NCBI RefSeq assembly: GCF_002192255.1
Contig: NZ_CP021768.1
Span: forward strand, 3,304,001 to 3,368,000
Length of the DNA stretch: 64,000 nt
Source of the DNA: Stenotrophomonas sp. WZN-1
GTDB taxonomy: Bacteria; Pseudomonadota; Gammaproteobacteria; Xanthomonadales; Xanthomonadaceae
Direction: 5' to 3'
The notes under the pieces were generated by a model that had not been told where the DNA came from, made no database searches, and worked only from the letters and a program-made list of their open reading frames with translations. Both the position numbers and the translations under genes were made by a program. Below are positions 48,696-53,600 of this stretch, piece after piece; within the stretch, counting starts at the first letter, position 1; each line of letters opens with the position of its first letter.

Positions 48696-50138
48696 ATGAC
48701 GACCCCCACGCTGCACCGGCCGCACGCCATGCCTACATCGTCATCGACCTACAACCGCCACCGCCCCCTGCTGTGGCTGGTGTCCTTGGCGATCTTCATG
48801 CAGATGCTGGACTCGACCATCGTCAACACGGCGTTGCCGGCGATGGCGGCCAGCCTGGGCGAGAGCCCGCTGCAGATGCAATCGGTGGTGTTCAGCTATG
48901 CGCTGGCGGTCGCGACCTTCATTCCCGCCTCGGGCTGGATCGCCGACCGCTACGGCACCCGGCGCACCTTCCTGGTGGCGATCATCCTGTTCACCCTCGG
49001 CTCGCTGGCCTGCGCGCTGGCCCAGCACCTGCACCAGCTGGTCGGCGCGCGCGTGCTGCAGGGCATCGGCGGTGCGATGCTGCTGCCGGTCGGCCGGCTG
49101 GCGGTGATGCGTTCGGTGCCGCGCGAGGATTTTCTGCGCGCGATGAGCTTCATCGCCATCCCCGCGCTGGTCGGTCCGCTGATCGGCCCGACACTCGGCG
49201 GCTGGCTGGTCGAGATCGCCTCATGGCACTGGGTGTTCCTGATCAACCTGCCGATCGGCGTGATCGGTTTCATCGCCGCGATGAAGATCATGCCCGATCA
49301 CTACGCCAGCCATCGCACCCGCTTCGACCTGCGCGGCTACATCATGCTGGCCTTCGCGATGGTGGTGCTGTCACTGGCACTGGACGGCATCTCCGGGCTC
49401 GGCACGCCACACGCACTGGTGATGCTGATGACCGTGGCCGGCCTGGCCGCACTGGTCGGCTACTGGCTGCACGCGGCAAACTCGACTGCGCCGTTGTTCT
49501 CGCTGGCCCTGTTCCGCGTGCCCAGCTACCGCATCGGCATTCTCGGCAACCTGTTCTCGCGCATCGGCAGCAGCGCCATGCCGATGCTGATTCCGCTGCT
49601 GCTGCAGGTCGGCCTCGGCCTGGGCCCGATGCATGCCGGCCTGATGATGGTGCCGGTGGCGGCGGCCGGCATGGTCTCGAAGAAGCTGGCGGTCAAGCTG
49701 GTTGAGCGCTATGGCTACCGCCGCGTGCTGATGGTCAACACCATGCTGGTGGGCCTGGCGATGGCCAGCTTCATCCTGATGACACCCGGCCAGCACCTGG
49801 CCTGGCGCCTGCTGCAGCTGGCGTTCTTCGGTGCGGTCAATTCCCTGCAGTTCACCGTGATGAACACCGTGACCCTGCGCGATCTTGACCGCGAATTCGC
49901 CAGTTCCGGCAACAGCCTGCTGTCGATGGTGATGATGCTGGCCGCCGGTTTCGGCGCAGCCGCCGCCGGCAGCCTGCTGGCCGCGTTCGGCACCCACCTG
50001 GACAGCACCGATGCTACTGCGGCGTTGCATGCCACGTTCCTGTGCGTGGGCGCGATCACGCTGACTTCGACGATGATCTTCTGGCAGCTGCCCGACACCA
50101 AGCCCGAACCGCGGCAGGTCGAACACGTTGCGGAGTGA
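48696..50138 (+). CDS. DHA2-type MFS efflux pump
   Basis: 480 residues with about 14 helices. Motif MLDSTIVNTALPAMA in helix 1 and GPTLGGWLVEIASWHWVFLI in helix 5 (motif C) are the EmrB/QacA (DHA2) signature; GWIADRYGTRRTF is motif A. It exports small hydrophobic compounds with protons; MdtD-like pumps are closest. No membrane-fusion gene (EmrA) and no regulator are adjacent. An in-frame ATG at 48729 is an alternative start. Confidence 0.92.
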   Translation: MTTPTLHRPHAMPTSSSTYNRHRPLLWLVSLAIFMQMLDSTIVNTALPAMAASLGESPLQMQSVVFSYALAVATFIPASGWIADRYGTRRTFLVAIILFTLGSLACALAQHLHQLVGARVLQGIGGAMLLPVGRLAVMRSVPREDFLRAMSFIAIPALVGPLIGPTLGGWLVEIASWHWVFLINLPIGVIGFIAAMKIMPDHYASHRTRFDLRGYIMLAFAMVVLSLALDGISGLGTPHALVMLMTVAGLAALVGYWLHAANSTAPLFSLALFRVPSYRIGILGNLFSRIGSSAMPMLIPLLLQVGLGLGPMHAGLMMVPVAAAGMVSKKLAVKLVERYGYRRVLMVNTMLVGLAMASFILMTPGQHLAWRLLQLAFFGAVNSLQFTVMNTVTLRDLDREFASSGNSLLSMVMMLAAGFGAAAAGSLLAAFGTHLDSTDATAALHATFLCVGAITLTSTMIFWQLPDTKPEPRQVEHVAE

Positions 50139-50230
50139 GGGTGGTTCGGCAGGACCTGCGGCCCTGCACCCGCAGAGGCCGAAGCCGAAGCAACAGCAAC
50201 AGCAACAGCGAGCATTCCGTGGGTTGGCGA

Positions 50231-50324
50231 GGCGGTGTGGGCTTGCAGGACACGCCGTAAACCCGTCCATGGGGGCTCGATGGCGCCATCCATGGCGCCA
50301 ACGGTCCTGCAAGCCCACACCGCC
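50231..50324 (-). repeat. Structured repeat element, copy A
   Basis: Perfect 21-base outer arms (50231-50251 and 50304-50324), inside which are a 9+9-base hairpin with the core CATGGATG (50281-50300) and the 13-base block GGGTTTACGGCGT (minus strand 50264-50252). The same plan occurs inverted in copy B. It is not a SMAG element. Whether it is RNA or DNA structure cannot be told from sequence. Confidence 0.8.
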
Positions 50325-50357
50325 CCACCTCTGACAGATGGTCGCTGCTGTTGGTGG

Positions 50358-50377
50358 GTGTCGACCTTGGTCGACAC
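50358..50377. repeat. Headless REP-like palindrome
   Basis: GTGTCGACCTTGGTCGACAC, a perfect palindrome of the SMAG stem type, but preceded by GTGG rather than GTAG. Confidence 0.6.
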
Positions 50378-50402
50378 ATCTGTCAGATATCGAAATACAT
50401 CT

Positions 50403-50443
50403 GGGGTCAGATCCGTTTTCCGAAGGAAAACGGATCTGACCCC
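50403..50443. repeat. Perfect 19-base-pair hairpin between the two structured repeats
   Basis: Arms GGGGTCAGATCCGTTTTCC (50403-50421) and its exact reverse complement (50425-50443) with a 3-base loop. No T run follows, so an intrinsic terminator is unlikely; a repeat unit is more probable. Confidence 0.75.
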
Positions 50444-50479
50444 GAGAGTCGTTCCAACAGATCGCGGAAAACTGTCGAA

Positions 50480-50581
50480 GGCGGGGTGGGTCCGGTTGCG
50501 GGAGTGTCCGCGGCATGGATGCCGCGGCCAAGCCCCCAGGGAGGGGTTTACGGCGTCTCCCGCCACCGGGCCCACCCCGCC
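50480..50581 (+). repeat. Structured repeat element, copy B (inverted to A)
   Basis: Outer arms of 25 bases with two mismatches (50480-50504 and 50557-50581), a 9+9 inner hairpin with the same CATGGATG core (50508-50527), the shared AGCCCCCA block, and the identical GGGTTTACGGCGT (50544-50556). Arms and inner stem differ in sequence from copy A but remain paired. Confidence 0.8.
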
Positions 50582-50620
50582 ATCCCACGGATTGCACGCT
50601 TTTGACGTTGATCCGGCAGG

Positions 50621-50641
50621 TGCAGGGCTGCAAGCCCTGCA
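50621..50641 (-). terminator. Hairpin after the last hybrid kinase
   Basis: Arms TGCAGGGCT and AGCCCTGCA with a 3-base loop, 8 bases past the kinase stop. No T run follows, so terminator function is only possible. The rest of 50139-50648 outside the listed repeats contains a short CAACAG run (about 50188-50210) and nothing else I can support. Confidence 0.4.
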
Positions 50642-50648
50642 ATAATCC

Positions 50649-53600
50649 CTACCTTCCCATCACCCTGGCGATCGCTTCCACCAGCAGTTCGCCGGTCACC
50701 GGCTTGCGCAGGAAGCCGCCGATGCCGGCCGCTTCCACCTGCTGCTGAAGGTCCGGATCGGTGCGCGCGGTCACCGCCAGCAACGGCAGCATGTAGCCCT
50801 GGTTGCGCAGGTGCTGGGCCAGTTCGAAGCCGCTCAGGCCCGGCAGGTCCAGATCCAGCAGGCCGACGTCGAAATCGCCGGCACTGATCTCGCGCAGCGC
50901 CGCCAGCGCATGGCCGGCATGCACCACCTCGTGGCCGCGTGCACTCAGCAGCCCCCGCACCACATCGGCCACGGTGGCATCGTCCTCGACCAGCAGCACC
51001 CGCAGCGGTGGCATGTTCGCCGCCTCGTCGCGATGCCCCTCCCCGGACGCCTCGGCATCACTGTCCACCACCAGTGGCAACGGCAGGGTCACGCCGAAAC
51101 AGGTGCCTCGGCCCAGCTGGCTCTCCACCTGGATCCGCCCCTGCATCGCATGTGCCAGCTCGCGGCAGATCGCCAGGCCGAGGCCGCTGCCACCGTACTG
51201 CGCTGCGGTACGTGCACCGTCGGCCTGCTCGAAGCGGCGGAACAGGCGCTGCTGCTGTTCCTGGCTGATGCCGGGGCCGGTATCGCGCACTTCGAAATGC
51301 AGCGCGCGCAGCTCGCCATCGCAACGTGCGTGCAGGGTGATGGTGCCGCGGCTGGTGAATTTCACTGCGTTCGACAGCAGGTTGAGCAGGATCTGCCGCA
51401 CGCGCATGGCATCACCAGTGGCCTGCAGGCCCGGCGGCAGCTGGTTGTCGAGGGTGAAGCGCAGGCCCTTCTGTGCGGCCAGTGGGCCCATCAGCGCCGC
51501 CAGATCCTGCAACAGGCCATTCAACGCAAACGACTGCGACTGCAGTTCCAGGCGCCCGGACTCGATCCGCGCCAGGTCCAGCGCATCGTTCACCAGGTGC
51601 AGCAGGTGCTCGCCAGCATGCCGGATCGACTGCGTGTAGCCGCGCTGCTGCGGGTCCAGTGGCGAGGCCAGCAGCAGTTCGCTCATGCCCAGCACGCCGG
51701 TCATCGGCGTACGGATCTCATGGCCAAGGTTGGCCAGGAAGCGGGTCTTGGCCGCCGAGGCCTGCTCGGCCAGTTCCTGCTTGTGCAGCGCCAGCTGGTA
51801 GGCGTGGCGCCGCTGCAGGCGGCGTCGGTACAACCAGGCGAACCAGCTGGTCAGCAGCAGCCCGACCGACGCCAGCACCAGCAGGCCCGACAGGCTGCGC
51901 CACCACGGCGGCTGCACGCGGAATTCCAGGCTCTGCACCCGCGACCACACATGGTCGGCCGAGCGTGCCTGCACCTCCAGCCGGTAGCTGCCCGGCGCCA
52001 GGCGCGAGAACAGGCGCTCGCCAGCCGGCCCGACTTCGACCCAATCCGGGTCGTAGCCGGCCAGGCGGTAGCGATAGGTATTGGACGCCGAGTCGGCGAA
52101 GGACAACAGTCGCGCGACGATGCGCAGGTCGCGGTCGCCATCGGCGATCTGCAACGGCGCATCGTGGGTCATGTCCAGCACCTGCTCGTTGCGGCGCACT
52201 TCCACCCGCTCGATCACCAGTGGCGCGCGACGTACCGAAGGCCGCACCTGCTCCGGATCGAACACCACCGCGCCTGCCGCCGTTCCAGCCACCAGGTGGC
52301 CATCGGCCGCTGCAATCAAAGTGTGTTCGCGGAATTCCTGGCTTGGCAGGCCGTCGTGCACGCCGTACAGGCGCACGCTCTGCCCATCGGCACTGACACG
52401 GACCAGGCCGCGTGCGCTGGTCGCCCAGGCCACACCCTGCGCATCCACCACCAAGCCGGAGGCGGAGATCGCCGGATAGCCCTGTTCGGCACCGACCACC
52501 GCCTGCCGTTCCAGGCGCCCCTGGCTCCAGCGGTATCGCGACAGGCGCCCGTCCTCGGACAACCAGACCTGGCCGTCGCGGCCTACGTGCAGCGCATGGA
52601 TGGCCGTTGCCGGCGCACCCGGCACCGGCTGGAAGCGCTCGCTTTCCGGCAGCCACTGCAGCAGGCCACGGCTGCTGGCCAGCCAGATATGGTCCTGCGG
52701 ACCGCATTCCACATCGAGGTTGAGCTGGCCCTGCTGCAGGCCACGCTGGCCATTGTCCAGCTCGCGCCGCACGCGCCCGTCGAGGTCGCGCTGCTGCAGG
52801 CCCGCAGGCAGCATCAGCCAGAGGCTGTCGCCGTCGCAGGTCATCATCGCTTCGATGACACCTTCCATCGCCGCATCGGCGCCAGCGTCACGCCCCCAGC
52901 GGCGCAGCTCGCGCCGTTGCGGGTCGTAGCGCACCAGCGCATCGGTCGAGCCGATCCAGACCTGGCCACGCCGGTCCTCGCGCACCGACGACAGCCAGTG
53001 CATGCCGTTGACCCAGGTACGGTGCTGCTCGATCCTGCCGGTTTTCGGATCGAAGCGATCCAGCGCACCATGGCTGCCCACCGTCCAGACGCCGCCATTG
53101 CTGGATGGGCTGGTGCCCAGCACGAGCGCATTGCGCAGCGAGCTGGGGTCGTCCTCCAGGCGCGACAGCACCGAGAACTGCCACCAGCGTGGCAGCAGGT
53201 GCCACAGCCCGGCATTGGTGCTGGCCAACCAGATGCCACCTTCGCGGTCCTCGTAGGCACCGGTCCAGTTCGGCCGCACCGGACCGCGCGCGATCGCGCT
53301 GTACAGCGGCACGGTCTGGTACTGGCCATCAACCGCCCGCCCCAGACCGGTGCGCGTGTCCAGCCAGTGCCCGCCCTGCTCGTCGCGCAGCATCATGCCC
53401 AGCACCTGCTCGCCCGCCGGCAGCTTCCACGGGGGGGCTTCGAAGCGCCCATCCGGGCGGCGCACGGTGGCCCCGGCCAGCGTGCTGATCCACAGGCTGC
53501 CATCCGGTTCGGCGGTCAGCCCGTTGATCAGCAGGCTGGGAATGACGTCCGTACCGACACGCTCGAAGTCGGTCCCGGTCCAGCGCGCCACGCCATGCTT

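Follow-up and report, generated by a model that had tools for sequence, protein, structure and literature searches.

An intergenic three-way-junction repeat with paired ANGGAY loops in Stenotrophomonas, a candidate docking RNA for RsmA/CsrA

Two copies in one gap and the fold they share

The window, i.e. the whole stretch of 64,000 nucleotides that was analysed, spans positions 3304001-3368000 of the 4.51-Mb genome of Stenotrophomonas sp. WZN-1 (G000, hereafter the own genome). A 510-bp gap between convergent genes (by eye, an ORF resembling a transporter, which stops at 50138, and one of 1185 aa resembling a kinase, which stops at 50649) is occupied by two structured repeats in inverted orientation (copies A and B), both present as an earlier note on this DNA had described. 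A low-power scan, for which none is also the chance expectation, found no promoter-like site in the gap. The features are as follows.

50226..50329, minus strand: copy A, whole three-way-junction element (P1 of 26 bp, P2 and P3); match to model R1, genome 3354226-3354329
50254..50276, minus strand: copy A hairpin P3, hexaloop AUGGAC at 50265-50270, 5-nt bulge UUUAC
50281..50300, minus strand: copy A hairpin P2, loop CATGGATG, hexaloop AUGGAU
50330..50479, no strand: spacer of the divergent pair, with two further palindromes (50358-50377 and 50403-50443)
50480..50581, plus strand: copy B, whole element (P1 of 25 bp with one mismatch, P2 and P3); match to model R1, genome 3354479-3354582
50508..50527, plus strand: copy B hairpin P2, loop CATGGATG
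50532..50554, plus strand: copy B hairpin P3, loop AGGGAG at 50538-50543

The fold of the family is a three-way junction made of an outer stem (P1, ~26 bp) and two hairpins: P2, of 6-10 bp with the loop CATGGATG, and P3, in which a GCY/RGC stem, a UUYAC bulge and three further pairs lead up to a hexaloop. P3 reads GCCCCCANGGA.GGGTTTACGGC, with an upper stem CCC/GGG, the bulge TTTAC and a lower stem GCC/GGC, and its 3' side, 5-nt bulge included, is the GGGTTTACGGCGT block; a register ending in an octaloop was replaced by the hexaloop register. A 13-base block said to be identical in the two copies does occur in both (50252-50264, minus; 50544-50556, plus). It had been considered unpaired together with a 16-base stretch, but the two form P3, with compensatory changes in wider alignments. 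The 20-base inner hairpin described earlier exists, but P2 is longer at its base by as many as three pairs (columns 13-38, 14-37 and 15-36, the last unpaired in 17 of 36 sequences). Outer arms of 21 and 25 bp had been reported; the latter figure holds for copy B (25 bp, including one wobble and one mismatch), the former does not for copy A, whose 26 bp (24 Watson-Crick and 2 wobble) close the element at 50226-50329. Copy A is also matched by the core model R2 (genome 3354240-3354315, minus). The GGA sites of the two loops lie 23 nt apart in either copy, and the last base of the P3 loop of copy B deviates from ANGGAY. Folds of both strands of both copies are 6.6-9.5 s.d. below dinucleotide shuffles, none of 200 shuffles being as good.

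The two spacer palindromes are also seen in the spacers of other pairs; the longer one (GGGGTCAGATCCGTTTTCC...GGAAAACGGATCTGACCCC, 50403-50443), which recurs there, is terminator-like on the minus strand. By eye, the outer flanks of the pair (50140-50225 and 50582-50648) are likewise inverted (GCATTCCGTGGG and CCCACGGA(A/T)TGC), with hexanucleotide repeats (CAACAG and GCTGTT) present in many copies, and GCAGGG...CCCTGC hairpins adjoin the gene ends.

Selection for structure, surmised earlier from the two copies, is supported by two alignments in which covariation was measured by pair counts against shuffles. The first (A3) aligns, without gaps, 36 copies from 14 genera; seven belong to the own genome, and the remaining 29 represent 13 further genera of the family. 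In it, 93.9% of cells are paired, the covariation score is 0.583 versus 0.156 when shuffled (reached by 0 of 500 shuffles), both sides have changed in 25 of 28 pairs versus 16.8 in shuffles, and sliding the partners by 1-3 columns makes the score fall to 0.06-0.11. The arms thus do co-vary in this 36-sequence alignment, the upper stem of P3 covaries (C-G/U-A and C-G/A-U), and its lower stem shows one change of C-G to G-C and four of C-G to U-A. The second alignment (A4) has 131 matches, fitted to model R2, on 100 loci of other genomes, of which 28 came from a search of the class and 72 from a DNA pattern specifying P3 only; echoes (L226) and partial rows are among them. Here, 93.2% of cells are paired, 1043 cells have changed on both sides versus 295 in shuffles and the score is 0.721 versus 0.182. 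Pairs changed on both sides (26 of 28) are barely above shuffles (24.1; 4 of 500 reach 26), and the discriminating measures in A4 are the changed cells and the score, the pair count hardly so.

Copy number, placement and turnover

Further copies with the same plan are numerous. For the exact core pattern that includes both blocks there are 55 occurrences in the own genome, versus 0 for a reversed control pattern, and the core recurs repeatedly in S. maltophilia records among the matches listed in a DNA pattern scan. R1, a covariance model built from 16 copies, finds at least 128 copies in the own genome (137 rows minus nine reverse-strand echoes; a few copies are partial). With genes predicted by a homemade gene finder, 0 of the 128 overlap a gene by more than 30 bp, and the genes on either side are convergent in 50 cases, co-directional in 66 and divergent in 12.

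This intergenic placement, with its 50 convergent versus 12 divergent sites, and the very stable stems would suit transcription terminators or mRNA 3'-end stabilisers with a REP-like role. However, TTTT follows the outer stem within 10 nt in 0 of 124 copies on either strand, on which ground intrinsic terminators were rejected, orientation relative to the genes is not evidently fixed and the fixed ANGGAY loops discussed below would be left unexplained; such a role is very improbable.

Neighbouring copies within 1.5 kb are arranged as in the window, with '-' followed by '+' in 43 of 43 pairs, 41 of which have gaps under 450 bp. Pairs are undercounted, since a 'single' copy (1115128) has a degenerate plus-strand partner. 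Degenerate partners with P3-loop inserts can place such copies in hidden pairs; longer inserts replace the P3 loop at genome 590352 and 3436584 (L096, L055) and at L098 1774-1846. By eye, copies at genome 3272401, 3376085 and 3418169 (L111, L115, L117) have a P2-loop insert of ~90 nt, which apparently contributes extra hairpins whose loops are AGGAC and AGGACA. In another genus of the family (G064), pairs within 600 bp are '-+' in 33 of 46 cases, '+-' in 11, '--' in one and '++' in one (94 of 120 matches). Pairing is not required, since in G065 the sole neighbouring pair is '--' and no -+ pair lies within 600 bp (56 of 63 copies).

The history of the copies was followed at one site, the orthologue in other genomes of the genus of the place that the pair occupies in the window; its flanking gene was found in 37 of 41 genomes. 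Thirty loci (L284-L313) scanned with R2 gave 26 rows, part of them elsewhere in the loci. Among the gaps read by eye, other subtypes stand at the same place and in the same orientation in L285 and L289, L288 and L290 have loop inserts, L295 retains a stem-base remnant and L296 has lost the copy. From L302 on, more distant species have short gaps without copies; the contigs of L292-L294 end at the site, so no gap is readable there. None of these gaps showed a clean insertion flanked by a target duplication, and the variation resembles turnover of copies and conversion of one by another more than it does clean transposition. Spread of the copies must have taken place at the DNA level, by a mechanism that their number still calls for.

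It is here that an explanation at the DNA level has to be considered, in which the repeat is a palindrome of REP/BIME- or MITE-like type, mobile or convertible, and its hairpins would be recognised as single-stranded or cruciform DNA, with any RNA role incidental. It would account for the high copy number, the divergent pairs, the 5' and 3' flanks common to unlinked copies (by eye) and the state of the orthologous site, where subtypes are swapped, copies partly lost and loops enlarged by inserts. Against it, -+ pairs are missing from the G065 copies counted above and no transposase is visible by eye inside the two widest (~1-kb) pairs, where the enclosed genes look ordinary: an aldolase-like ORF (KDPG aldolase, by eye) and a 257-aa ORF. 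The earlier note had offered either a structured RNA or a transposable palindromic element moved by an unknown transposase; the latter half has found no support so far, while the RNA half is upheld by the covariation, by the identity of the loops with RsmA/CsrA sites and by a wobble asymmetry, to which we now turn.

Loops, strand and related RNA families

The idea that the conserved loops are likely recognition sites gains support from their sequence, since both hairpins typically end in hexaloops CANGGAYG, which is the consensus of P. aeruginosa RsmA; AUGGAUG is the CLIP consensus of E. coli CsrA (both according to PMC7705225). A script whose pattern requires GGA found CA.GGA.G near the P2 position in 124 of the 128 copies of the own genome and at P3 in 119 of those 124, the exceptions being nine copies, several of which carry inserts. 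The P2 loop is CATGGATG in 121 of the 124 and P3 is CANGGAYG in 117 of the 119, with N being T (67), G (39), A (10) or C (3). Paired CANGGAYG hairpin loops are thus found at the level of the family; in the window, copy A fits with both loops and copy B with the first only.

The constancy of the loops in A3 is not evidence because its rows were picked with a pattern requiring them. In A4, the P3-loop columns are biased for the 72 pattern-derived loci; the P2 loop was unspecified in the DNA pattern scan, but aligned to a model expecting it. It starts with A (117 of 124), followed by N (T 73, G 37, A 9, C 2), G (123 of 125), G (122 of 125), A (126 of 126) and a last position with T 94, C 25, A 5 and G 1, and the letters of the P2 stem vary, including those of the closing pair (C-G 111, G-C 6, A-U 4). 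The plain pattern CA.GGA.G is present at P2 in 101 of 131 rows; the other 30 include partial ones, some with another closing pair and some with other loops (CTGGACG, CCGGACG, CAGGATG). The loop letters are the positions most resistant to change.

The P1 stems of the own genome have 65 G-U versus 18 A-C cells, or 57 versus 18 once repeated contexts are removed (p = 7e-6, the copies being not fully independent), an excess that points to selection on one folded strand, the one with GGA, most simply as RNA. Strand-specific single-stranded DNA, bound by a transactor on one folded strand, could also yield this asymmetry. Yet a palindrome acting as DNA sits badly with a fixed part that is ANGGAY in two loops, i.e. 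the consensus of an RNA-binding protein, and with the similarity to RNA families described next, and we regard it as rather unlikely.

The nearest known family is TwoAYGGAY (RF01731, clan CL00106), which has been proposed to bind CsrA and is described with tandem G-A pairs in one stem (PMC4333381); it is reported from human gut, gammaproteobacteria and Clostridiales (PMC2864571) and has a table row in PMC11701678. Both have an external stem (changed on both sides in 12 of 12 counted P1 pairs in A3) followed by a pair of successive hairpins whose loops are of AYGGAY type; in cmscan alignments of copy A and L141, P1, P2 and P3 are in register, and GUUUACG is common to both in the 3' strand of the second hairpin. 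The second hairpin of the RF01731 consensus has a UCGUAAAC/GUUUACGA segment, whereas here the 5' strand of it is absent, which leaves UUYAC as a bulge, and here there are >100 copies, mostly as divergent pairs. Tandem AYGGAY loops are present in copy A (AUGGAU, AUGGAC) but not in copy B (AUGGAU, then AGGGAG), the second loop position being T, G, A or C in the family. An Rfam scan at the gathering cut-off gave no match at copies A and B. In permissive mode, copy A scores 38.1 bits over 50219-50336 (cut-off 43) and copy B has no match at E<=5. Across the own genome, 15 of 128 copies match RF01731 at E<=1, versus 0 of 14 control genomes, and one is above the gathering score (46.9 bits on a short stretch; unlisted when the whole locus is scanned); the cut-off is also passed, at 44.0, by L141, which comes from a different family within the class. 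Since permissive Rfam gives unrelated stem-rich miRNA families similar E-values, the case rests on the alignment and the copy above cut-off. With copies A and B below the gathering score and one of 128 above it, the copies are best called relatives or variants of TwoAYGGAY rather than members.

The second related family is Ysr224 (RF02770), for which no clan is listed, unlike RF01731 with CL00106, and whose model represents the opposite strand. When reverse-complemented, its consensus carries both GGA loops (CAGGGATG, CATGGATG) and the GAGCCTACATGGATGTATTTACGGCGTC / TTTACGGCGT block, and its annotated strand has no GGA loops; on this comparison of consensus sequences, RF01731 and RF02770 appear to model opposite strands of one kind of element. 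Searched at E<=1, RF02770 has 119 matches in the own genome, none above cut-off (best 43.0 of 70 bits), which hit 117 of the 128 copies, 117 of 117 in antisense, with two of the 119 on no listed copy; weak matches also occur in 5 of 14 control genomes. Neither the gathering score nor the strand allows membership of Ysr224. The functional transcript could then be the opposite strand, as these 117 antisense matches and the description of Ysr224 as an expressed, multi-copy sRNA of Yersinia would have it; Ysr224 is said to be among the most prevalent sRNAs and temperature-responsive (PMC9029176) and, in Yersinia ruckeri, multi-copy with several copies expressed as transcripts (PMC12112432). But every match is below cut-off, the wobble asymmetry favours the GGA strand and the two GGA loops are found in the reverse complement of the Ysr224 consensus only, so that this possibility is hardly credible.

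In the related genus Xanthomonas, RsmU of X. campestris is an RNA with GGA motifs that binds RsmA, but it differs in being located in the 3' UTR of comEA and having its own terminator (PMC7694677). R2 has no match (E<=1) in four comEA loci (L314-L317, from G000, G017, G064 and G118), and identity with RsmU was rejected. With all four GGA motifs changed, RsmU is reported still to bind RsmA (in a smaller complex) and to keep its overexpression phenotype (PMC7694677), which by analogy warns that GGA motifs alone may not settle function. The claim that the repeat is not of the GTAG (SMAG) family proved correct, the consensus of 26 copies being ~104 nt without a GTAG tag. Like it, GTAG/CGTC REP including SMAG are many-copy intergenic palindromes, often dimers, but they are said to measure 20-40 bp and to bear a GTAG/CGTC tag (PMC3733652), compared with ~104 nt, branched and untagged here. 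No earlier description of the element for Stenotrophomonas was found in searches of an open-licence collection of papers.

Occurrence in the class and a possible role

Copy number, intergenic placement, covariation, strand asymmetry, loop identity and similarity to TwoAYGGAY and antisense Ysr224 are all computed features, and they are best explained, with a probability that we put at about two in three, by the element being a divergent, multiplied TwoAYGGAY-type RNA that docks RsmA. The strand with the CATGGATG loops would encode an RNA three-way junction showing two C-ANGGAY-G hexaloops, 23 nt apart, which would suit the pair of RNA-binding surfaces on a single RsmA/CsrA dimer and clamp it. 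For transcription in this organism, we infer that the intergenic copies are most likely read through from neighbouring genes; the pairing would then mean that a transcript from either side holds one sense copy of a divergent pair. As RsmA docking sites, >100 copies could titrate it, exert local effects in the 3' parts of mRNAs, or both.

A docking RNA of this kind presupposes its protein, and one CsrA is found in the own genome. For the distribution of the element, the best 12-33 candidates per genome were scored with R1 and R2. R1 matches at least 38 of 119 genomes of the family, and R2 at least 74 of 369 genomes and at least 65 of 271 genera of the class (E<=0.01); among 398 genomes of the phylum, of which the share outside the class is not given, R2 matches at least 34 (E<=0.001), 34 of 34 being in the same class. 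Records with the DNA pattern include, among the matches listed, Stenotrophomonas, Xanthomonas, Arenimonas, Microbulbifer, Marinobacter and Rheinheimera as well as Cellvibrionaceae, Methylococcaceae, Ectothiorhodospira, Alteromonas and Vibrio, and R2 too matches loci of each of these taxa. An uncultured Saccharophagus record (L179 3122-3735) has four same-strand copies in tandem, with a period of ~180 bp.

CsrA is found in 69 of 74 element-positive versus 243 of 295 element-negative genomes of the class (p = 0.012, overlap read by eye, confounded by phylogeny) and, for complete genomes, in 60 of 61 with the element versus 219 of 253 without (p = 0.003, likewise confounded by phylogeny). A CsrA match is absent in five element-bearing genomes, four of which (G126, G186, G217 and G458) are <90% complete and one (G312) 98%; a genus mate (G029) has two CsrA matches, yet no R1 or R2 match among the scored candidates.

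A wider proposal, possible but in our estimation doubtful, is that in several lineages of gammaproteobacteria such repeats have made the intergenic space a distributed network for RsmA/CsrA. Each genome would have dozens to >100 docking modules, which in some lineages are mostly arranged as divergent pairs, and read-through from either side would expose one sense module and couple genome-wide transcription to free RsmA; TwoAYGGAY and antisense Ysr224 (with no clan link between them) would describe parts of this single element. If the docking reading is right, RsmA/CsrA would meet, beyond a few dedicated sponge RNAs, a dispersed family with >200 candidate loops in one genome (124 + 119), which would change the modelling of Csr regulation in these bacteria. 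It would also join two Rfam families annotated on opposite strands, for an element present in at least 65 of the 271 class genera sampled, and provide a family of intergenic palindromes with a function open to direct test.

Elsewhere in the window, a glycine riboswitch aptamer (RF00504, 66.9 bits) lies at 549-651 on the plus strand.
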